A stretch of DNA of 64,000 nucleotides. Origin: Magnetococcales bacterium. Lineage in GTDB: Bacteria > Pseudomonadota > Magnetococcia > Magnetococcales > Magnetaquicoccaceae. Location of the stretch: the NCBI GenBank assembly GCA_015231755.1, contig JADGAZ010000011.1:62001-126000 (forward strand), written 5' to 3'. Of the stretch, positions 71-12,968 are shown piece after piece. Position numbers and translations under genes: made by a program. The notes beneath the pieces are model-generated. The model was not told where the DNA came from, searched no databases, and worked only from the letters and a program-made list of their open reading frames with translations. How positions within the stretch are numbered: position 1 is the first letter of the stretch; every line of letters starts with the position of its first letter.

Positions 71-904
71 ATGTCTGACCTGGCCCGAGGGGATACCGAA
101 TATCTGGTCTTTTCCGCCAATCAAGGCCGGTACGGGGTTGCGCATCACGCGGTGGTGGCCATCATCGATGTGCCGGAACACACCGACATGCCCGGCATGC
201 CCCCGGAAGTGCGGGGATTGATTGTCCATCAGGGGCGCAGCATCCCTTTGTTCGATCTGCGGGTCTGTTTCGGAGAGAAAACCCGCCTGCAAGAGACCCA
301 GGAACTGGTGGCAAACATGATCCAACGCAAACAGGATCACATCAACTGGCTTTCGCAACTCAAGTTCGAGGTGTTCAGCAACAAGGCCATCACGGTGCAA
401 ACCAACCCGGAACTGTGCGCCTTCGGCCAGTGGTACAAAAATTTCAAAACCGACAATCTCAATCTCAACGCCCATATGCAGCATTTCGACGATCCCCACC
501 GGCAGATCCATCGCATTGCCGAAGAAGCCTCGACCTTGATGGAGCAAGGACGCCTCGAAGAGGCCAAAAGCCTGATCCATCTGACCGAAAAAGGCACCTT
601 GTTGCGACTGGTGGAACTGTTCGACGGGGTGGCCGAACAGGTCAAGCAATATCTGCTGGAATATACCGTCATTTTTGGGGTCGGGGAGACGCAATTCGCC
701 CTGGCAACGGACAAGATCAACTTCTTTGGCCGCCTGGATCCCATCGAAAAACTCGCCCCGGACGAAATCAAAGGCAACAAATATGATTTCATTCATTCCA
801 TCGGGCACAGAAAAACCGAAAGCAAAGTGCCGGAAAAACCGGTCCTGCTCCTGGACATGGATCGTTTCGTGCGCCAATATCCTTTCCTGCGCGCCCACAC
901 GTAA
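71..904 (+). CDS. CheW-like coupling protein interrupted by a zinc-binding CZB domain
   Basis: The 277-residue protein begins like a CheW scaffold (residues about 8-68, ending in an IPLFDLR strand) and resumes CheW-like sequence at about residue 205 (YTVIFGVGETQFAL, then LLLDMDRF near the end). Between them lies a chemoreceptor zinc-binding (CZB) segment with the expected ligand pattern: H90 before W93, C116 in CAFGQWY, and H143 and H147 in PHRQIH. CZB domains bind zinc through three His and one Cys and are known as sensors of zinc or oxidants, usually at the C-terminus of chemoreceptors or in diguanylate cyclases. Here the domain would modulate the receptor-CheA coupler directly; that role is inference. 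The start is supported by AAGGA at 57-61, nine bases upstream. It converges on the large chemotaxis operon. Confidence 0.88.
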   Translation: MSDLARGDTEYLVFSANQGRYGVAHHAVVAIIDVPEHTDMPGMPPEVRGLIVHQGRSIPLFDLRVCFGEKTRLQETQELVANMIQRKQDHINWLSQLKFEVFSNKAITVQTNPELCAFGQWYKNFKTDNLNLNAHMQHFDDPHRQIHRIAEEASTLMEQGRLEEAKSLIHLTEKGTLLRLVELFDGVAEQVKQYLLEYTVIFGVGETQFALATDKINFFGRLDPIEKLAPDEIKGNKYDFIHSIGHRKTESKVPEKPVLLLDMDRFVRQYPFLRAHT

Positions 905-973: not shown

Positions 974-3010
974 TCACGCCACGTTGTCGAGCTGTTCCGG
1001 CAACAGGTAACGCTTGGCATACTCCTGACCCACGCCGCTGTTTTGCAACAACGCGACCAGATCCGGATCGATGTGGCCATCCTTGACCATGAATGACATG
1101 ATCTTCATCGCCTCGCTCAAGGTCTTGGCCTTCTTGTAGGGACGGTCACAGGCGGTCAACGCCTCGAAGACATCCGCCACCGCCAGGATGCGGGCCGGAA
1201 TCGGAATCTGTGCGGCGGTCAACTGCCGGGGATAACCCTTGCCATTGAGGGTTTCGTGATGGGATCCGGCATATTCGGGCACCCGCTGCAAACCCTTGGG
1301 AAAAGGCAAACGGTTCAACATCTGATAGGTCTGGATCACATGGTCGGAGATCTTGAAACGATCTTCGGGGGTCAAGGTGCCGCGGGAGATGGCCAGATTG
1401 TAAATCTCGCCCCGATTGTACAACGCCTCGGGGACAGAAATCTTGAACTGCATGGGATTGTCCCCGAACGGATTGGCATCGCCACGGGGAATGACCTGCT
1501 CCGGACGGTCGGCCAGCAGACACTCTTCCACCGGCGGCGGCTGTCTGCCATGGGGTTGCCGCAACAACGCCTCTTCCTGGGAGATGCCGAGCCAGTCGTC
1601 GAAATGGCGCATCCAGCGTCGCTGGGCGATCTCCTTGAGGCGGGCCACCCGCTGATCGCTCATGAACTCGCCCCCCACGTTGCACTCCGCCACGAAGGCG
1701 AACTCCTCTTGCAGGGTCTGACGGGCAGAGGCCAACTCTTGATCCAGCCGCTCCACCGGGACGGTTCCCGCCGCCCGCTGTTGCCAGTAGTGAATCTCCG
1801 CATCCCGCCACAACACCTCGAAGCGGGTACGCACCTCGTGAATGCGGTTGTAGACCGTCTCCAGCTTGGTGGCCTTGTCCACCACCGCCTCGGGAGTGGT
1901 CACTTTGCCGCAGTCGTGCAGCAAGGCGCTGAAACGAAACTCCCGCCACTCCTCCTCGTCGGCGAAACGGAAATGGGCAAACGGGCCTTCGTTCTGGTCG
2001 CAGACCGCCTGTCCCAGCATCTGGGCCAGCACGTTGACCCGGGCGTTGTGGCCCCCGGTATAGGGGGATTTGGCATCCACGGCAACCGAGATGACCTCCA
2101 CAAAAGAGTCCATCAACTTGCGTTGCGACGAAATGAGCTGCTGATTGGAAAGGGCGATGGCCGCCTGGGAAGCCAACGCCTCGACAAAGGATTGGCTCTC
2201 TTTGGAGAACGCCACCACTTCGTCCACACCCGGGGTCCGGGCATTCATCAGTTGCAGCACCCCGACCACCTCCTCCCCACGGGGCAACAGCGGCACCATG
2301 AGCAGGGTACGCGACTCGTAACCCACCGCCTTGTCGAAACGACGGATGGTGGCAAACTGGGGATCGGTTTCCGCGACGACATCCGCCACGTTGATGGTGA
2401 TCCGTTGGTGGGCCACCCGGGTCACGATGTGGTCCAGATTGGGTTGCCCATCCTTGACCATCGACAGACCGGGAAACACAATCGGACGACCGCTTTCGCC
2501 CCCAAGGAACATGTTCAGGCTTTTGACCCGAATGATCTTGATGATCAACCGATTGTCCGGCGTGCGGGCATAGAGCATGCCCCAGTCCGCCCCGGAGATT
2601 TCCATGGCTCCCGTCAGGATCAGATCCAACAGATGATCCTCGTTGCGCTCGTTGGAAAGCCCAATCCCCACCTGAACCAGTTGTTCAAGCTTGGCCCGTT
2701 CCCAACTCAACTCCCGGGTCCGTTCCTGAACCTTCAGATCCAGCATGTCGGCGTGTTGGGTCAAAGTCTGATGGGCTTTTTCCAGCTCCGATTGCTGTTG
2801 CTGGATCTGGTCATGGGCCAGCTTGATGCGCTCTTCGTTGCGGTCGCTGTGACGGGTCAGGCGTTGCAACGACTTCAACAGCTTGCGATAAGCCTTGACC
2901 TGAGACTCAAACGCCTCCCGTTCCACCGACTCCCCGGCCCCGGCCAACACCCGCTCCGCCTGTTGCAGCGCGAGACTCTCTTCCAAAAAAGCATCAAACG
3001 GTTGCGTCAT
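974..3010 (-). CDS. GAF/HD-GYP protein, predicted cyclic-di-GMP phosphodiesterase
   Basis: The 678-residue cytoplasmic protein has an N-terminal helical/coiled-coil segment (about 20-110), a GAF sensor domain (about 115-290) and a C-terminal HD-GYP domain. The metal-site residues are visible: H365-D366 in LLHDCGK, an HHE triad and G592-Y593-P594 in GKGYP. HD-GYP enzymes hydrolyse c-di-GMP. The HD and GYP motifs lie about 228 residues apart because of a charged insertion (about 385-535), longer than in typical family members. I chose ATG at 3010 over an upstream in-frame TTG. The gene is the last of the chemotaxis/Sia operon, 26 bases after siaC, where the pseudomonad siaABCD operon would have a diguanylate cyclase. 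No transmembrane segment is seen, so its input is probably the GAF ligand or SiaC. Confidence 0.9.
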   Translation of the reverse strand: MTQPFDAFLEESLALQQAERVLAGAGESVEREAFESQVKAYRKLLKSLQRLTRHSDRNEERIKLAHDQIQQQQSELEKAHQTLTQHADMLDLKVQERTRELSWERAKLEQLVQVGIGLSNERNEDHLLDLILTGAMEISGADWGMLYARTPDNRLIIKIIRVKSLNMFLGGESGRPIVFPGLSMVKDGQPNLDHIVTRVAHQRITINVADVVAETDPQFATIRRFDKAVGYESRTLLMVPLLPRGEEVVGVLQLMNARTPGVDEVVAFSKESQSFVEALASQAAIALSNQQLISSQRKLMDSFVEVISVAVDAKSPYTGGHNARVNVLAQMLGQAVCDQNEGPFAHFRFADEEEWREFRFSALLHDCGKVTTPEAVVDKATKLETVYNRIHEVRTRFEVLWRDAEIHYWQQRAAGTVPVERLDQELASARQTLQEEFAFVAECNVGGEFMSDQRVARLKEIAQRRWMRHFDDWLGISQEEALLRQPHGRQPPPVEECLLADRPEQVIPRGDANPFGDNPMQFKISVPEALYNRGEIYNLAISRGTLTPEDRFKISDHVIQTYQMLNRLPFPKGLQRVPEYAGSHHETLNGKGYPRQLTAAQIPIPARILAVADVFEALTACDRPYKKAKTLSEAMKIMSFMVKDGHIDPDLVALLQNSGVGQEYAKRYLLPEQLDNVA

Positions 3011-3035
3011 GACCAATCCCGATCAAAAGCAAAAA

Positions 3036-3419
3036 TTATTCCTTGGGAATCATCACAAACGTGGCATGTTCCAGATCCTCGGAAAACTCTTCGCCCAACT
3101 CCTCCATGTTGGAATCGTCGGGGGCGAAAAACCAGCCGATGGTGACAGTATTGCCCGCCTCGGCGGCCTCGTCGAGCATCTCGAACAGACCCATGACAAT
3201 CTTGGCCGTGGTACTGTTGAAATAGATCAGGTCGAAATTGAACTGGATGGTAGCCCCCTGGGCGCCACTCAGATACTCCTTCAACTGACCGATCAACGGC
3301 CCAAAGAACTTGTTGACATCCTCCGGATAAGACTCGCCGACAATGCTGAACGTCCCGGCGGCAAAGTCAAAATCGATTCCGGGGGAACGCTTGGTGGGTT
3401 CAATCTTGATATTTTCCAT
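3036..3419 (-). CDS. siaC: SiaC-family regulatory phosphoprotein (DUF1987)
   Basis: This 127-residue protein matches the SiaC family: a small alpha/beta protein with FDFAAGTFSIVGESYPEDV near the start and the phospho-site region YFNSTTAK in the middle. In Pseudomonas aeruginosa, SiaC is phosphorylated by SiaB and dephosphorylated by the PP2C phosphatase SiaA, and unphosphorylated SiaC binds and activates the diguanylate cyclase SiaD. The Ser/Thr cluster of YFNSTTAK is the likely phosphoacceptor by position; that is inferred. The ATG at 3419 has GGAG six to nine bases upstream and is preferred over a TTG twelve bases earlier. It follows siaB by 17 bases and precedes an HD-GYP gene, so its partner here may be a phosphodiesterase. 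Confidence 0.88.
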   Translation of the reverse strand: MENIKIEPTKRSPGIDFDFAAGTFSIVGESYPEDVNKFFGPLIGQLKEYLSGAQGATIQFNFDLIYFNSTTAKIVMGLFEMLDEAAEAGNTVTIGWFFAPDDSNMEELGEEFSEDLEHATFVMIPKE

Positions 3420-3436
3420 AGACAGCTCCAATCGTA

Positions 3437-3991
3437 TTATAGGTGGGCTTTCAAGACAAAATAGGAGAGTTCCTGATCGATCTCCAGGAAATCAAATTCA
3501 AATCCCCGGGAGGCCATCCGGGCGATATCCACAAAACCGACCCCGGCCCCCTTGCTGCCTTCCGGAACCTGACCTTTCAGGATCTCTTTGTGCATGGCCT
3601 TGAGTCCCATCCGGTCCAGACCCCGGATGTGATCGAGTCCCTGACGCAACCGTTCCACATCCCGACGCTTGATGGCATTGGCGCTCAACACATAGTGTCC
3701 TTCCGCGCCCCGACCCACCGCCAGCATGCCATGGCGCAGATCCACCGGACGCTCATCCACACACCCTTCCTGGTTTTCGGCAGAGTAGCGGATGATGTTT
3801 TGCACCTGCTCGACAAACAGGCTGAACAGACCACGGGCCACCGGACGTTCGGTGTTGTCCAGCTCCAGCTTGTCCATCACCGTATCGCCGATGGCGGACA
3901 GCACCTTTTCCGTCACATAACCACAATAATAAAACAGCACACCACCCCGAATCATTTCCTGACGCAGCAGCAGGATTTCCCTGGATTCCAT
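3437..3991 (-). CDS. siaB: SiaB-family serine/threonine kinase
   Basis: The 184-residue protein resembles the SiaB family of small single-domain kinases with a divergent GHKL-type fold, as seen from the segments GGVLFYYCGYVTEKVL and ARGLFSLFVEQVQNIIRYSAEN. Its expected role is to phosphorylate SiaC and so oppose the PP2C phosphatase encoded just upstream. The phosphatase stop codon overlaps a GTG at 3997. I prefer the ATG at 3991, which has GAGG about eight bases upstream, but either start gives a coupled gene. The protein has no membrane segment and no fused sensor, so the signal must come through its partners. Family assignment rests on remembered sequence features rather than a search. Confidence 0.82.
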   Translation of the reverse strand: MESREILLLRQEMIRGGVLFYYCGYVTEKVLSAIGDTVMDKLELDNTERPVARGLFSLFVEQVQNIIRYSAENQEGCVDERPVDLRHGMLAVGRGAEGHYVLSANAIKRRDVERLRQGLDHIRGLDRMGLKAMHKEILKGQVPEGSKGAGVGFVDIARMASRGFEFDFLEIDQELSYFVLKAHL

Positions 3992-3993
3992 TG

Positions 3994-5319
3994 TCACGCC
4001 TCGCCCCTGATCGCATCCGTTTCACACCCCATGGGATCCATACGCAACCGGAACCCCACCACCGACACATCGTCACGTCGCGACTCTTCGCCTTGATGTT
4101 CCAGGAGATGTTTACGAATCATCGCTTTTTGTTCTTCCATGGCTTTTTCGCCAATCCGACCCAGCAATTCCAGCAAACGCACCTTGCCAAAACCTCGACG
4201 CACTGCGCTGCCCACCTGATCGATCAACCCATCGGAACTCATATAATAACGCATACCCGGAGTCACCTCCACATCCACCTGGGCGAACTCCTGGGCAAAC
4301 GGCACCCGACGATAACCAATGCCCTTCTTGTCCCCCTTCACCTCGAAAGGCGCGCCGCCCACCGGACAGACAAACAGGGAAAACCGGGCACCGGCATACT
4401 GCAAACGGGTCTGACCTCGGGTCAGGTAACACAGCCCCAGCTCCATACCATCATCCGACTCGCCCAAAGCGGTATCCTGTTTCAAGGTGATCTGCACCAA
4501 CTGGTGGGTTCGGGACAACAGTCGACCCAATTCACCGGGGGGAATCTCGCTGCACGCCCGATCAAAGGCACCGGTGACGATCAGGGTCATGAAGGCTCCG
4601 GGAACGCCATGGCCGGTGCAATCCCCCAGGGCGAACAGCACGCCGTCGCCCCAAGGGCGGCACCAGTAGATGTCCCCCCCTACCATGTCCCGGGGATCCC
4701 AGAAAATGAAATGATCCTCGAAGATCCGGATCAGAATCTCCGGATTGGGCAGAATCGAACGCTGAATGTTGCTGGCGTAAAGAATGCTCTCCTCGATCAC
4801 CCCGAAGGCTTCAGCCAGACTGTCCCGGGTTTTTTCCAGCTCCGCATGGGTGATGCGCAACTCGCCGAAAGCCCGATCCACCTCTTCCTTGGCCTGACGC
4901 AAAATCTCGGCGCGCTTGCGGGTCTCCTTGAAATGCTGACGCATCACCAGCAGATTGCGCAACCGGGTGACGAACTCCACATTATCGATGGGCTTGTTGA
5001 GAAAGTCGGTGGCCCCTTCCTGCAACGCCATGTAACGCACGGTCTGGGCATCCGAACCCGTCACCATGACAATGGGAATCTCCCCCCGATCCGGCAGGGC
5101 GCGGAAGGCTTCGATGAAACCCAACCCATTCATCACCGGCATGATGTAATCGACAATCACCAGATCCGCCTCCTCCCCGGCGCACCACGCCAACGCCTGG
5201 AGAGGATCGGTGAAAGGGATCGGTTCACAGCCGTCCACGGTCTGAATCAGACGCGCCAGCAGGGTCAGGACACTGCGGCTATCGTCGATCACCACGATAC
5301 GGAAAATTTCATCACTCAT
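3994..5319 (-). CDS. Response regulator with PP2C-type (SpoIIE/RsbU-like) phosphatase output
   Basis: Residues 1-120 form a CheY-like receiver with the acidic pocket D12-D13, phosphoacceptor D57 in IVDYIMP and a conserved lysine in LNKPID. A coiled-coil linker (about 130-210) leads to a SpoIIE-type PP2C domain with the metal-binding aspartates in MVGGDIYW and GDCTGHGVPGA. The protein is 441 residues. It is the likely SiaA equivalent that dephosphorylates SiaC, but the membrane HAMP sensor of pseudomonad SiaA is replaced by a receiver, so CheA could be its phosphodonor (inference). The ATG at 5319 lies seven bases after the cheB stop, and the gene ends over the siaB start, consistent with translational coupling. 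Confidence 0.9.
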   Translation of the reverse strand: MSDEIFRIVVIDDSRSVLTLLARLIQTVDGCEPIPFTDPLQALAWCAGEEADLVIVDYIMPVMNGLGFIEAFRALPDRGEIPIVMVTGSDAQTVRYMALQEGATDFLNKPIDNVEFVTRLRNLLVMRQHFKETRKRAEILRQAKEEVDRAFGELRITHAELEKTRDSLAEAFGVIEESILYASNIQRSILPNPEILIRIFEDHFIFWDPRDMVGGDIYWCRPWGDGVLFALGDCTGHGVPGAFMTLIVTGAFDRACSEIPPGELGRLLSRTHQLVQITLKQDTALGESDDGMELGLCYLTRGQTRLQYAGARFSLFVCPVGGAPFEVKGDKKGIGYRRVPFAQEFAQVDVEVTPGMRYYMSSDGLIDQVGSAVRRGFGKVRLLELLGRIGEKAMEEQKAMIRKHLLEHQGEESRRDDVSVVGFRLRMDPMGCETDAIRGEA

Positions 5320-5326
5320 GTCCGCT

Positions 5327-6897
<1,571 letters not shown>

Positions 6898-6933
6898 GGG
6901 CCTTTCCCCACGGGGAGAACCCGGTGGTCGGAC

Positions 6934-9126
6934 TCAGTATTTCTGGAAATGTTCATCGTCATCGTCGAGATCCAACGTATACCCCTTGGATTTGCCACCC
7001 CCCGATGACAACAATTTACGCCCACTCTCCTTGCCCGCGCCTCTCCGACCACTCGTGCGCCCCGGAGCGGGCAAGGCCCTTTCGGGTCGATGCATCCAAC
7101 CTGTCGGGATCGCGGCGGGAACCCGGCTGCTATCGTCCAAATGAAAATAGGAGATGGTGTGTTGCAACTGTTCCGCCTGCCCGGTCAACTCCTCCGAGGT
7201 GGTGGACATCTGTTCGGCGGCGGCGGCATTCATCTGGATCACCTTGTCCAACTGCTGAATGGCGCTGTTGATCTGGGAGGCTCCGATATCCTGCTCGCGA
7301 CAGGCCGAGGAGATCTCCTCCACCAACGCGGCGGTTTTCTTGATGTCCGGCACCAGACGGGTGAGCATGTCGCCGGCGGCCTGAGCCACCTTGAGGGTGT
7401 TGGTGGACAAGGCACCGATTTCGGCGGCGGCGGTCTGGCTGCGTTCGGCCAGTTTGCGCACCTCGCTGGCCACCACCGCGAAGCCCTTGCCGTGTTCTCC
7501 GGCGCGGGCCGCCTCCACGGCGGCGTTGAGGGCCAACAGATCGGTCTGACGGGCAATCTCTTGCACGATGGTGATCTTTTCGGCAATGGTCTGCATGGCC
7601 GACACCGCCTTGGCGACCGCCTCACCGCTCTGCTGGGCGCTTTCGGAGGCCTTGGCGGCGATACGCTCGGTCTGACCGGCGTTTTCGGCGTTCTGTTTGA
7701 TGTTGGAGGCCATCTGTTCCATGGACGAGGAAGCCTCCTCCGCCGAAGCCGCCTGTTCGCTGGCCCCCTGGCTCAACTGCTCGGAACTGGCCGCCAACTG
7801 CTGGCTGCCCATGGAGACCGCGCTGGAAGCGGTGAAAGCGTCGGTGACCACGGTGCGCAACCGCTCCACCATGGTTTCCAGGGCGATGCCCAACACATCC
7901 TGCTCGGACAAACGGCTGGGCTTGACGGTCAGGTTGCCCTTGGCAATCTCGTCGGCCAGACCGGCGGTCACCTTGAGATTGGCCGACATGAGGTTGAGGG
8001 CGGTCACCAGATCCCGCATTTCGTCGTTGGTGGTGGCGGCGATATTGCTGGACAGATCCCCTTTGGCCACGGCGTTGGCCAGATCCACAGCCCGACGCAG
8101 ATTGGTACTGATGGTCGAAGAGATCCAGGAACCCACCAAAATGGAGATGATCAGCGCGACAATCAGCAGCATAATCATGACCACACGGGCACTTTGATAG
8201 CTCTCCTCCGCATCCATCTCCACGGTTTTGCCATCTTCCCGCACCTGAGCGATCAACTCGTTCAAGCTGTTTTCCGCCGCCACCCGAGACGTTTGGCCCT
8301 CACCACTGAGCAACATAAAGGCTTTGATGTCGCTGTTGATGGCACCAATGATACGCACCTGCTCGGCAATCTGATCAAACTTGCGGTAATTGTCCGCCAT
8401 GCTGTCATACAAATGGGACTGGTCTCCCTTGAGCAACACACGCAATTCGGGGAGATGTTGCCGGATCTCCTCACGCCACCCATCGACATCCCGCACCTGT
8501 TTGGCGATATCCTGTTCGCTGTCAAGCAGAATGATATTTTTCTCCGCCCGATGAATCATCAACACATTGGCAAGAATACGACTGGCCAGAACCAACTCCT
8601 GACCGGAGGATGCGCTTTTGGGATCTGCTTTCAAGGAAAGAATCGCATTCAGGGAGGCGACCACCGCATCCGCCGCCTTGCGTCCCTCACCCATCGACAT
8701 GTTGCGGGCCTTGTTGTTGCTGTTCTGCAGGCTCATTTTCCGCACCTGCTCGGACACCTCGATATATTTTTTCCAGGTTGTCACGAACATATCCAGCTTG
8801 GGACGGGTTTTTTCGTTCAACAGCGGGGGAAGCTTGTGAATGTATTCCTCGATCTCCAGATTGATTTTCTTCATCTGTTCGACGAAATCGGCCTTGGACT
8901 CGTCCGTGGGGGCAATGATGATATCCCGTTCCCGTCGGGAGTATTGAGAAGAGCGCAACAGCAATTGGTTGACATGGGATCGGGCCACGGATTGCACGCT
9001 GACCAGTTCATGGGTCGCATGATTGAGATTGCCAAGACGCCACAGCCCCACCCCGGCAATGGCGGCCGCCATCAGAATCAATACCAGAAACGCCATAGCC
9101 AATTTGAACTTGATCAGAACACGCAT
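6934..9126 (-). CDS. Methyl-accepting chemotaxis protein with tandem helical sensor modules and a docking tail
   Basis: The 730-residue receptor has a first membrane helix at about 8-29, a periplasmic all-helical region (about 30-312) and a second membrane helix at about 315-338. The periplasmic region looks like two four-helix-bundle modules in tandem, because two similar stretches ([14 protein letters not shown] and [13 protein letters not shown]) recur about 120 residues apart. Two HAMP-like linkers follow, then the signalling domain with its hairpin tip near [18 protein letters not shown]. The C-terminal tail is basic, then acidic, and ends HFQKY, which fits the CheR/CheB docking pattern x-aromatic-x-x-aromatic. 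GAGGG lies nine bases before the ATG. The ligand cannot be told from sequence. Confidence 0.93.
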
Positions 9127-9174
9127 CAGGTTACCCTCATCCTCGTTCGTTTTAACGTTGCATCCTTCGTCGGA

Positions 9175-9624
9175 TCAATCCGAGGCGAAGACCCGCTCCA
9201 AATCCAGAACCATCACAAACCGACCCTGACGCCGCCCTACGGCGCGAATGAACTCCGATCGACAACGCATGCCGATACGCGGGATCTCCTCGGACATCAC
9301 CAACTCGAACTCCGCGACCTCATGCACCTTGTCGGCCCGCAAGGCCACCAGAGTCTCTTCTCCGTCGATCTCTTGCTCAATGACCACAAAGCGGCTGTCC
9401 GGAGTGGTGATGGCACCGGTCAGACCGATTTTCATGCCCAGATCCATCAAGGGCACAACCCGACCCCGCACATTGATCAGGCCGTTGACAAACGGACGGG
9501 CCGTGGGCACTCCGGTGACCGGCAACAGATCGAGAATATCGCACACCACATGCACCGGAATGGCGAACAGATCCCCGGCCACCCCGATGATCAAGCTTTT
9601 GAGACTATCGGACGAGGGTTTCAT
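9175..9624 (-). CDS. cheW: Chemotaxis coupling protein CheW (first copy in operon)
   Basis: This 149-residue protein consists of one CheW domain, recognisable from LIIGVAGDLFAIPV at the start, FVNGLINVRGRVVPLMDLG and a closing FVMVLDLERVF. It links receptors to the CheA regulatory domain. Its start overlaps the end of cheA by 20 bases, so translation is probably coupled and the stoichiometry with CheA kept close. It is followed after 48 bases by the chemoreceptor gene. Confidence 0.94.
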   Translation of the reverse strand: MKPSSDSLKSLIIGVAGDLFAIPVHVVCDILDLLPVTGVPTARPFVNGLINVRGRVVPLMDLGMKIGLTGAITTPDSRFVVIEQEIDGEETLVALRADKVHEVAEFELVMSEEIPRIGMRCRSEFIRAVGRRQGRFVMVLDLERVFASD

Positions 9625-11722
9625 GACCCACTCTCCTACCCGACGGATGCAACGCCTCGCGCAAGCGCTCCTCCCGGTGCTGTCCGAACTCGATCAGGTG
9701 ATCGATCTCCAGAATCAAGGCCACCCGACCATCCCCCAGGATGGTGGCTCCGGAAAAGGATTTCACGTCGGCATGGACGCGACTCAACGATTTGATCACG
9801 GTCTGATGGTCCCCCAGAATCTGATCCACCACCAAACCGACCCGCCGCTTGCCCACCACCACGATCACCACCTTTTCATGGGGAGGGGGTTCCCCCATCA
9901 CCGCGAACAGGTCCCGCAAGTGCAGAAAAGGCACCAGCTCATCGCGAATAAAGAGAAAATTGTTTCCATCCCCCCCGGCATGCTCCACCATGGCATCCGC
10001 CAGTTCCACGATGGCGTCCACATTGGACAAGGGTACGATATAGCGCTCCTCCCCCACCTTGAGCAGCAGGCCATCGATGATGGCCAGGGTCAACGGCAGA
10101 CGCAACACCACGCGGCATCCCTCGCCGGACTGGCTGAACACTTCCACACTGCCACGCAGGGCGTCGATGCTTTTTTTCACCACATCCATGCCCACGCCGC
10201 GACCGGAGATCCCGGTCACCGCCTGAGCCGTGGAAAAACCGGGATGAAAAATCAACTGGGCCAGATCCCCATCGGAGATGTCGCTGCCGGGAGCCAGCAG
10301 ACCACGCTCCTCGGCCTTGGCCCGAATGCGGTTCAGGTTCAACCCTTTGCCATCGTCATCCACGGTGATCAGCACCTGTCCACCCACATGGGTGGCGGTC
10401 AGAAGCAGGGTGCCCTCTGGGGATTTTCCCGCGGCCAGCCGCGCTTCGGAAGACTCGATGCCGTGATCCATGGCGTTGCGGATCAGATGCACCAGGGGAT
10501 CGTTCAGGCTTTCGACCATAGTTTTGTCGAGTTCCGTCTCCTCCCCCCGGGTATCCAGACGTACCTGTTTTCCCAGTTCCCGGGAGAGATCCCGCACCAC
10601 TCGGCGAAACCGGCTGAACAACGAGCCGATGGGCACCATGCGAATGCCCTTGGTGGTCTCGCGCAACTCCGAGACCAGGCGCCCCATCTCCTCCACCACG
10701 GCCCGCAACGAAACAACCGACAACTCCTCGGTACTGGAATGGGCGATCTGTTTGAGACGGGATTGCACGATCACCAGTTCGCCCACCTGATTCATCAAGC
10801 CGTTGATGCGGTCGGAGTTGACCTTGACCACACTTTCGATAGTCGGCTTGCCAGCGGGGGAGGAGACGGCTGGAACGGGTTGCACCGGCAGGGACGCGGC
10901 AGGCCGGGAATCCACCATCGAAGAATCCACCGACTGGACCACCGGCTCAACGGACCCCATTTCCGGCTTCGGAGGGGCCGGATCCGGCGTGGCCGACAAG
11001 GGTTCGATGTGGAGCCGGGTTTCGTTGCGGATGAACAAAAAGACATCCTCGATGGCCTCCACCGGTTGGCCGGTGACGAGTTCAAGCTCCCAGCGCAGGT
11101 AACACCGATCCGGATCCAAGGCATCCAGACCCGGCACATCCGAAGCGTCGCAACGGACCTTGCCGGTGCCCATCTCCAGCATTTCACGAATCATCGTGAC
11201 CGGATTGGACCCCAGAACAAAAGCGTTCTCCGGCAGGATGAACCGGATGCGATACCCGTTGGAGAGCACGGGTGGCGGCGGAGGTTTGGGAGCGGCGGCC
11301 CTGGGCTCAGGGGGGGGAACCCGTCTGGGCGCCGCATCTCCCTGGCCACGCACCACCCGGTCGAGATGGGCCAGAATGGCATCACCCGCTCCGGCGGACA
11401 CCTGACCCGGGGCGTCGATCAGCAAACGCATGTAGTCCCTGGCTTCCAGGGTGACGCCCACCAGGGCGGGAGTGACAGGCACCTCCCCATTGCGCACCCG
11501 GTCGAAGACCGTTTCCACATGATGGGTGAATTTGGCCAACGCCTCGAAACCGAACATCGCCCCGGAACCCTTGATGGTGTGCAAGGCGCGGAAAGCCGAG
11601 GCAATGGTCTCCTTGTCTTCCGGAGCGGTTTCCAGGTCCAGCAGGGCGGTTTCGAGCTGAATGAACAGCTCGTCGGCCTCCTGGCGAAAAATGTCGGAGG
11701 GATCGCCGGAGAGAATGTTCAT
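9605..11722 (-). CDS. cheA: Chemotaxis histidine kinase CheA
   Basis: The 705-residue kinase has a P1 phosphotransfer domain with the phosphorylated histidine H48 in ALHTIKGSGAMFGF, then a P2-like CheY-binding domain (YRIRFILPENAFVLGSNP region). A proline-rich linker leads to P3 dimerisation, P4 ATPase (N box in HLIRNAMDHGIE, G box in GISGRGVGMDVV) and P5, the CheW-like regulatory domain. The start chosen is the ATG at 11722, whose ATGA overlaps the cheY stop by four bases; an earlier in-frame start at 11782 lies inside cheY and is unlikely. It autophosphorylates under receptor control and feeds CheY, CheB and possibly the receiver-PP2C protein of this operon. Confidence 0.96.
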   Translation of the reverse strand: MNILSGDPSDIFRQEADELFIQLETALLDLETAPEDKETIASAFRALHTIKGSGAMFGFEALAKFTHHVETVFDRVRNGEVPVTPALVGVTLEARDYMRLLIDAPGQVSAGAGDAILAHLDRVVRGQGDAAPRRVPPPEPRAAAPKPPPPPVLSNGYRIRFILPENAFVLGSNPVTMIREMLEMGTGKVRCDASDVPGLDALDPDRCYLRWELELVTGQPVEAIEDVFLFIRNETRLHIEPLSATPDPAPPKPEMGSVEPVVQSVDSSMVDSRPAASLPVQPVPAVSSPAGKPTIESVVKVNSDRINGLMNQVGELVIVQSRLKQIAHSSTEELSVVSLRAVVEEMGRLVSELRETTKGIRMVPIGSLFSRFRRVVRDLSRELGKQVRLDTRGEETELDKTMVESLNDPLVHLIRNAMDHGIESSEARLAAGKSPEGTLLLTATHVGGQVLITVDDDGKGLNLNRIRAKAEERGLLAPGSDISDGDLAQLIFHPGFSTAQAVTGISGRGVGMDVVKKSIDALRGSVEVFSQSGEGCRVVLRLPLTLAIIDGLLLKVGEERYIVPLSNVDAIVELADAMVEHAGGDGNNFLFIRDELVPFLHLRDLFAVMGEPPPHEKVVIVVVGKRRVGLVVDQILGDHQTVIKSLSRVHADVKSFSGATILGDGRVALILEIDHLIEFGQHREERLREALHPSGRRVGHETLVR

Positions 11723-12084
11723 TCCAACAACCGCCGGGTCACCTTGAGGAGCACTTCGGGAGCGAAAGGCTTGGTGAGCCAACCCGTAGCGCCGGCCTCT
11801 TTGGCCCGAGCGCGCAACGCCTCATCGCTTTCGGTGGTGACGAACAGGATCGGAACCCCTTTGTATTCGGATAGCTGACGCAGGGCGTCGATGAACTCCA
11901 GCCCTCCCATGCGGGGCATGTTGAGATCGGTGATCACCAGATCCACGGTGGTGTTTCTGGCTTTTTCCAGGCCGTCGAGACCGTCCACCGCCTCGATGAT
12001 CCGATATCCCCGCACCGCCAGCGTCAGCTTGATGGTCTGACGCATGCTGGGGGAGTCATCGACACACAGAATCATTTTGGTCAT
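11719..12084 (-). CDS. cheY: CheY-type single-domain response regulator
   Basis: The 121-residue receiver has the acidic pair in CVDDSPSMRQ, the phosphoacceptor in VITDLNMPRMGG, the switch Thr in VTTESD and the conserved Lys in LTKPFAPE. Proteins of this form carry phosphoryl signals from CheA to the flagellar switch, or act as phosphate sinks. The ATG at 12084 overlaps the STAS stop codon by one base (TGATG); an in-frame start four codons earlier is less likely. It overlaps cheA by four bases. Whether it drives the motor or serves the internal Sia module cannot be told from sequence. Confidence 0.93.
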   Translation of the reverse strand: MTKMILCVDDSPSMRQTIKLTLAVRGYRIIEAVDGLDGLEKARNTTVDLVITDLNMPRMGGLEFIDALRQLSEYKGVPILFVTTESDEALRARAKEAGATGWLTKPFAPEVLLKVTRRLLE

Positions 12085-12413
12085 CAGACGTTCCACAACT
12101 CCTCAAATTCGTGTTCCAGGCCAGCCAGTCGGATCTGCTCGGCCATAACGCCCATCCCGGGGAGAACCACCCTCAAGGCCAACTCGTCACCACCGGTAGA
12201 ACGCCGGGCGGCGATGATCATCTGAACCATGGACAGGTCGGTCTGCACCACATCGGAACAGTCCAGCACCACCGGCACGCCTTGATTCAGCAGGCCCAGC
12301 ACAGCCTCGCGCACAGCGGCAACTTCACGGATGGTCGCGCGCGCGGGCAATCGCAGCACGCCATCCGTACCCTGCGATGCGTCCATCATGGACGATTCAT
12401 TGCCCAAATCCAT
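12084..12413 (-). CDS. STAS-domain protein, anti-sigma-antagonist type
   Basis: The 109-residue protein is a single STAS domain: VLRLPARATIREVAAVREAVLGLL, then the strand VVLDCSDVVQTDLSMVQM that carries the usual phospho-serine position. STAS proteins of the SpoIIAA/RsbV class are switched by kinase and PP2C phosphatase pairs. Here it is the first gene of an operon that also encodes a SiaB kinase and a PP2C phosphatase, so it may be a second substrate of that pair; that is inference. Single STAS genes also head some other chemotaxis operons. I chose ATG 12413, preceded by GGAATGGAAA, rather than a TTG eight codons upstream. Confidence 0.88.
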   Translation of the reverse strand: MDLGNESSMMDASQGTDGVLRLPARATIREVAAVREAVLGLLNQGVPVVLDCSDVVQTDLSMVQMIIAARRSTGGDELALRVVLPGMGVMAEQIRLAGLEHEFEELWNV

Positions 12414-12484
12414 ATTTTTTCCATTCCATGGGAGCAAAACCTGCGGAAAAATGATCCTAATGATTGATATTTCAGCATGGATCC

Positions 12485-12513
12485 ATTATCCTCTCAACCG
12501 TTCCATTTTTCAA
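12485..12513 (-). promoter_or_regulatory. Sigma-70-type promoter of the chemotaxis/Sia operon
   Basis: Reading leftwards, TTGAAA (12513-12508) and GATAAT (12490-12485) are separated by exactly 17 bases. Each hexamer is close to consensus. The -10 box is about 70 bases upstream of the STAS start codon, and no comparable promoter was noticed further down the operon. Confidence 0.65.
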
Positions 12514-12614: not shown

Positions 12615-12968
12615 ATGTCCATCACCCTCACCCCCAGTGCCGCCAACAAATTGAGCGCACTGCTGCAAGAAGAGAACAACCCGCAAACCAAGCTGCGCAT
12701 CTTCGTTTCCGGGGGAGGCTGTTCCGGTTTCAAGTATGGCTTCACCTTCGATGACACCCAGGAAGAGGCCGATCTTCTGGTCGAATCCCATGGCGCCAAG
12801 GTGCTGGTGGATCCCACTTCCCTCAACTATCTGGCCGGTGCGGAAGTCGATTACGTGGAAGACCTTTCCGGCGCCCAGTTTGTCATCCGCAACCCCAATG
12901 CCGCCAGTTCCTGCGGTTGTGGTCAGTCCTTCACCCCCAACTCCATGGGCGGATGTTCCAACGCCTGA
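12615..12968 (+). CDS. erpA: Iron-sulfur cluster insertion protein ErpA/IscA family
   Basis: The 117-residue A-type carrier has the three conserved cysteines in the expected places: one in [11 protein letters not shown] and two in SSCGCGQSF near the C-terminus. These proteins accept Fe-S clusters from the scaffold and hand them to target enzymes. Fe-S client candidates within the window include the radical-SAM protein and the MagIII-like glycosylase. AAGGAG lies about 12 bases before the ATG. It is divergent from the chemotaxis operon and stands alone, with lon 178 bases downstream. Confidence 0.94.

Follow-up and report, generated by a model that had tools for sequence, protein, structure and literature searches.

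In this study we show, at the level of sequence, the gene content, the conserved active sites and the recurrent linkage of an eleven-gene run in a Magnetococcales bacterium, together with a docking motif that is specifically associated with the phosphoprotein SiaC. The run lies in a stretch of 64,000 nucleotides, here called the window (GenBank assembly GCA_015231755.1, contig JADGAZ010000011.1, positions 62,001 to 126,000). It joins a chemosensory array to a receiver-bearing phosphatase (receiver-PP2C), to the kinase SiaB and its partner SiaC, and to an HD-GYP enzyme. We consider it likely that these genes form a chemosensory pathway of the non-flagellar, second-messenger kind, in which the array acts on the receiver-PP2C, the latter on the SiaB/SiaC switch and SiaC on the HD-GYP enzyme. 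The operon combines elements of known kinds; of wider reach is the portable stalk on which SiaC is predicted to dock. In the literature searched, which left subscription papers largely outside, we found no description of a Che-Sia-HD-GYP operon, nor of SiaC clients besides the cyclase SiaD.

The predicted SiaC-docking stalk

In the crystal structure of SiaC with SiaD, Thr68 of SiaC lodges between the stalk helices of SiaD at S82/Q86, beside D83, R84 and R80 (PMC8457831). The N-terminus of the window HD-GYP protein carries R55-x-S57-D58-R59-x-E61 in register with S82-D83-R84-x-Q86 of SiaD. It is matched by a profile of 45 positions that was built from 16 effectors neighbouring SiaC. When 1,663 frames from 33 Sia loci outside the profile set were searched, all 26 hits with E<0.002 were effectors adjoining SiaC, with GGDEF, HD-GYP, class III cyclase or histidine kinase outputs; some of these loci are closely related to profile members, and 18 of the 26 hits lie outside Magnetococcales. 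Six-frame scanning of the whole genome containing the window (G000; 44 contigs, completeness 97.8%) gave exactly two matches, both HD-GYP proteins, and scanning of six genomes in which neither SiaB nor SiaC was detected gave none. The predicted step from SiaC to the HD-GYP enzyme is hence well supported. Chance adjacency of the HD-GYP gene was rejected, as the stalk is present in only two of the genome's 21 matches to the window HD-GYP protein.

The second stalk-bearing HD-GYP protein (L088:7058-9109; contig C5, 57081-59105) is 50% identical to the first, has an intact stalk and has no sia genes beside it. G000 encodes one SiaB and one SiaC, both in the operon described here, and the paralogue is predicted to be a further client of this SiaC. 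The pathway would therefore not be confined to the operon. An AlphaFold model of the window HD-GYP protein (mean predicted local distance difference test score 82, 19 sequences) has a helix break at residues 57-60, where confidence is about 60, and it was not used as evidence of binding.

Stalks also occur on other kinds of effector. Class III adenylate/guanylate cyclases with the docking stalk stand beside SiaC at L070:8183-9223, L068:1336-2394, L184:8270-9310 and L165:10624-11889. Histidine kinases with the stalk stretch were seen beside SiaC at L045:10604-11608, where it is degenerate (S-D-L), and at L155:8186-9256.

Across 48 Magnetococcales genomes, stalk-bearing HD-GYP proteins were found in 28 of 37 SiaB-positive genomes and in none of 11 SiaB-negative ones (Fisher p 7e-6, a value that ignores relatedness and draws on some incomplete genomes). 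One genome in which SiaB and SiaC were not found (G009, 88% complete) keeps an HD-GYP stalk (L141:3419-5485) whose S-D core reads N-E. Two further genomes negative for SiaB and SiaC (G021, G030) encode HD-GYP cores 63-64% identical to that of the window, with a receiver in the stalk position. In a tree of GAF-HD-GYP cores the window clade groups with receiver-HD-GYPs (100), the proteins of G018 and G040 with a Cache-type HD-GYP of G018 (100), and that of G034 with a receiver-HD-GYP (99). Because this tree spreads the stalk-bearing cores over several separate HD-GYP lineages they are polyphyletic, and the stalk, to judge from the trees, behaves as an exchangeable, portable input domain. In the SiaC and PP2C trees, the G018 unit falls with the window clade at 0.999; thus the Che-linked unit appears to have exchanged its catalytic core but retained an HD-GYP output. 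We lean slightly towards the view that the stalk (~40 residues, Y..KL.K...R..R.SDR.E/Q) is a general portable module which effectors of the GGDEF, HD-GYP, class III cyclase and histidine kinase types have received in evolution, and to which chemosensory arrays became connected on more than one occasion, in this operon by way of a receiver-PP2C.

Switch proteins, chemosensory genes and the proposed pathway

The initial annotation held that SiaA is replaced by a receiver-PP2C protein. This is true of the input side, where a receiver stands instead of the membrane sensor: Pfam detected no membrane sensor domain, and the orthologues in congeners have a transmembrane count of 0. The phosphatase domain itself, however, is still of SiaA type, as it scored 226 bits against the NCBIfam SiaA model, over model positions 394-657 (the C-terminal phosphatase part only) and under the equivalog cut-off. 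Its PP2C metal-binding motifs are present, and the Asp, Thr and Lys positions of the receiver are legible. Residues E63 and N67 of the window SiaB, whose nearest public relatives are in metagenome-assembled genomes of Magnetococcales, correspond to E61/N65 and are invariant in 41 sequences; E61 is the predicted catalytic residue of Pseudomonas aeruginosa SiaB (PMC7647112). The window SiaC matches SiaC crystal chains (E 3.9e-18) and scores 88.7 bits against the P. aeruginosa-type equivalog model, whose cut-off of 150 is not reached. Its Ser73 lies at the position of the P. aeruginosa phosphosite Thr68 and is Ser in 39 of 40 sequences. The equivalents of the docking residues Y31, Y65, N67, E110 and D114 are fully or almost fully conserved, and that of R103 is not conserved.

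On the chemosensory side the core is complete within the operon (receptor, CheW, and CheA with Hpt and kinase domains), and HTIKGSG and the ATP-binding boxes are legible in CheA. No cheR lies within the operon, though cheB does; four CheR homologues are encoded elsewhere in the genome. The partner switch may also act on the STAS protein as a second substrate.

Dephosphorylated SiaC activates SiaD by dimer stabilisation; once phosphorylated by SiaB, it no longer binds (PMC8457831). We propose, by analogy, that the 4HB receptor and CheW set the activity of CheA, whose phosphoryl groups would pass to CheY and to the receiver on the SiaA-type PP2C. Phosphatase activity would in turn depend on this receiver, and PP2C and SiaB together would set the phosphorylation of SiaC at Ser73. 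Unphosphorylated SiaC would then clamp the N-terminal stalk of the HD-GYP enzyme and switch cyclic-dinucleotide hydrolysis, probably on and by dimer stabilisation, as it does for SiaD; it might act likewise on the paralogue on the other contig. A path of this kind, from receptor through CheA and receiver-PP2C to SiaC and HD-GYP, had been suggested by the initial annotation. The SiaA-type PP2C, the Glu/Asn pair of SiaB, the phosphosite and docking surface of SiaC, the stalk motif and the recurring linkage all agree with it. Its first transfer is less firm, with CheA a plausible phosphodonor for the receiver-PP2C, and attractants might either raise or lower the dinucleotide level, depending on which receiver state activates the phosphatase.

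Gene order and recurrence of the linkage

All eleven genes that had been annotated are present by Pfam and NCBIfam domains, on the minus strand from 12413 to 974 and in the expected order: STAS, CheY, CheA, CheW, receptor, CheW, CheB, receiver-PP2C, SiaB, SiaC and GAF-HD-GYP. As had been noted, most overlap or nearly abut, with gaps of -20 to +48 base pairs and an ATGA overlap at the STAS/CheY junction. Congeners whose proteins are roughly 66-98% identical have the same order, which is therefore not due to chance. The claim that one promoter precedes the genes holds only in so far as a sigma-70-like sequence matches the consensus at 10 of 12 positions; the scan found 6 sites against 4.4 in shuffled sequence, so that the match is not evidence by itself. 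The eleven genes would presumably be read as a single transcript.

The same Che-to-SiaC order recurs in four congeners (G003, G005, G006 and G010), in some of them interrupted by contig ends, and a Che/receiver-PP2C/SiaBC unit without cheB is found in another family (G018). A different arrangement occurs in G026 (family f10), where receiver-PAS-PP2C, CheA, CheW, receptor and CheB are divergent from SiaB, SiaC and HD-GYP. Because its SiaC and PP2C fall outside the window clade in the trees, the linkage in G026 looks like a separate and apparently independent assembly. In two pseudomonad-like genomes (L157 and L174) a membrane-type siaABCD immediately follows genes for CheA, CheW, receptor and CheB, and SiaC is 82-83% identical to that of P. 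aeruginosa.

Alternative explanations

Several points weigh against the proposed pathway. The loci of G006 and G010 lack the HD-GYP gene but retain Che, receiver-PP2C, SiaB and SiaC, and a stalk-bearing HD-GYP paralogue is present elsewhere in both genomes. In G008 the Che/receiver-PP2C part and the SiaB-SiaC-HD-GYP part are on different contigs (L038 and L214). CheY and CheB might be the only targets of CheA, the receiver-PP2C being served by a different kinase, and the whole path, like co-transcription, is deduced here from genome data. When 177,635 PDB sequences were searched with the stalk profile, SiaD (7e6g) ranked first, aligned exactly on SiaC-binding motif 2, but the match is short and its E-value of 0.24 is alone not significant; with the full N-terminal alignment generic coiled coils dominated and SiaD came tenth (E 1.5). 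The specificity of the profile is the stronger evidence for the step from SiaC to HD-GYP.

It is possible, though rather doubtful, that the wiring is as proposed and that the enzyme hydrolyses another cyclic dinucleotide, such as 3'3'-cyclic GMP-AMP (3'3'-cGAMP), or is a regulatory protein that binds one without hydrolysing it; this overlaps with the reading given above and differs in the output only. The substrate, which would by inference be cyclic diguanylate (c-di-GMP), is not to be assumed, since Tyr319 (in SPYTGGH) aligns with the third-metal Glu of the trinuclear HD-GYP protein 4mcw, as in the 3'3'-cGAMP-specific enzyme 5z7c. A conserved insertion of ~150 residues (about 390-545), present in the aligned homologues and without a Pfam match, also lies between the HD motif and H559. 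Yet the HD, HH and GYP motifs are complete (H323, H367-D368-K371, H559, H586-H587-E588, G594-Y595-P596 and D615, all invariant in 19 homologues), and a bi-metallic site is also found in P. aeruginosa PA4781 (4r8z). PA4781 is reported to act on c-di-GMP. With GAF and HD_5 domains and these motifs, and with 4mcw as the top structural match of its AlphaFold model (Foldseek E 3e-14), an HD-GYP enzyme does take the place of the diguanylate cyclase, as originally annotated.

We think it unlikely that two separately run systems share one operon, with Che driving CheY only and the receiver-PP2C, SiaBC and HD-GYP answering another histidine kinase. Many Sia modules of the same order have membrane phosphatases and no Che genes, the genome encodes five CheA homologues, and the split locus of G008 would fit as well. 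However, the membrane-type phosphatases examined are without a receiver, whereas the Che-linked ones have one, and G026 appears to have acquired the linkage separately with its own receiver-PP2C. The Che1 locus of Shewanella oneidensis likewise carries a partner-switch regulator (PMC9855816) and is a precedent for such a che locus.

We regard as very improbable the reading in which SiaC has another target, such as the STAS protein or a DNA-binding protein, and leaves the HD-GYP enzyme alone, the stalk being a generic coiled coil and its adjacency incidental. The loci lacking the HD-GYP gene and nine SiaB-positive genomes without a stalk-bearing HD-GYP would suit it. However, the profile picks out SiaC neighbours with high specificity across several catalytic types, the stalk motif is absent from SiaC-negative genomes apart from the decayed form in G009, and it coincides with the SiaC contact residues of SiaD.

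Comparison with known systems

The proposed pathway, from array through receiver-PP2C and SiaC to the HD-GYP enzyme, shares with SiaABCD of P. aeruginosa the SiaB kinase, SiaC, the SiaA-type PP2C domain and, as predicted here, the binding of unphosphorylated SiaC to a motif in the stalk of a c-di-GMP enzyme (PMC8457831, PMC7647112). It differs in that the phosphatase bears a receiver where SiaA has its membrane sensor, the output is HD-GYP and not GGDEF, the SiaC phosphosite is Ser and not Thr, and Che genes belong to the same operon. Chemosensory genes beside sia genes (CheA, CheW, receptor and CheB) are also found in the pseudomonad Che2-type clusters of L157 and L174, but there SiaA is a membrane protein without a receiver and the output is GGDEF.

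In the Wsp system a chemosensory array also sets a cyclic-dinucleotide enzyme (PMC8846402), WspE phosphorylating WspR directly through the latter's own receiver. Here, in contrast, a Ser/Thr switch would stand between array and enzyme, and the enzyme belongs to a hydrolase family; Pfam found no receiver on the window HD-GYP protein, unlike the receiver-HD-GYP homologues in other genomes. The Halomonas cluster 2-type pathway, also reported from Magnetococcales, likewise combines a chemosensory cluster with a c-di-GMP output (PMC5907407), but this is a receiver-GGDEF protein, and PP2C, STAS and anti-sigma terms were not found in that paper.

In Che1-CrsR/CrsA of Shewanella, too, a partner-switch regulator is encoded in a che locus (PMC9855816, PMC7666153), but CrsR has its own anti-sigma domain and its output is RpoS, whereas here kinase and phosphatase are separate, SiaC is the protein switched and the predicted output is HD-GYP. 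By Pfam the window receiver-PP2C has Response_reg and SpoIIE only, unlike the Crs-type anti-sigma carrier, and the SiaB kinase is a separate protein. HptB-HptR(HsbR)-HsbA-HsbD of P. aeruginosa also places a partner switch on a c-di-GMP enzyme (PMC8457831); unlike the window system it is fed by HptB, uses the STAS protein HsbA rather than SiaC and ends in a diguanylate cyclase.

If the pathway operates as proposed, a Ser/Thr partner switch would place the breakdown of a cyclic dinucleotide under the control of a chemosensory array. Magnetotactic bacteria, to which taxis is central, are among the members of the Magnetococcales. The stalk motif might serve to predict SiaC targets from sequence in any genome, including those away from the sia locus. 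Likewise, the output of the pseudomonad Che2 clusters by siaABCD might be approached through a SiaC phosphorylation assay; the output of Che2 has been reported as unknown (PMC6739360).

Features of the locus and neighbouring genes

Table 1. Coordinates of the operon features in the window, with supporting matches and refined starts
Feature	Position	Strand	Evidence	Likely start
Putative sigma-70-like promoter match, TTGAAA-17-GATAAT	12485..12513	-	consensus scan, 10/12	
STAS protein	12084..12413	-	Pfam STAS_2 41 bits, cut-off 29.2	12413
CheY-like single receiver	11719..12084	-	Pfam Response_reg 100 bits	12084
CheA kinase (Hpt, H-kinase_dim, HATPase, CheW-like domains)	9605..11722	-	Pfam	11722
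CheW 1	9175..9624	-	Pfam CheW	
Chemoreceptor, 4HB sensor + HAMP + MCPsignal	6934..9126	-	Pfam	
CheW 2	6412..6897	-	Pfam CheW	
CheB	5327..6415	-	Pfam; NCBIfam CheB above cut-off	
Receiver-PP2C, SiaA-type phosphatase domain	3994..5319	-	Pfam Response_reg + SpoIIE	
SiaB-family protein kinase	3437..3997	-	NCBIfam SiaB_fam_kinase 167 bits, cut-off 85	
SiaC phosphoprotein	3036..3431	-	Pfam SiaC 135 bits, cut-off 24.5	3419 or 3431
HD-GYP enzyme: SiaC-docking stalk (predicted), GAF, HD-GYP	974..3016	-	Pfam GAF + HD_5	3010 or 3016
Predicted SiaC-docking stretch of HD-GYP stalk (Y43...K48...R55-x-S57-D58-R59-x-E61)	2792..2923	-	profile A2, 74.8 bits (G000:C11:64792-64923)	

Upstream of the operon lies a divergent ErpA-like gene (12615-12968, plus strand). 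The convergent gene downstream (71-904, plus strand) encodes CheW fused to a CZB zinc-binding domain, and a gene of this kind is also found near the operon in the congener loci L033 and L037.

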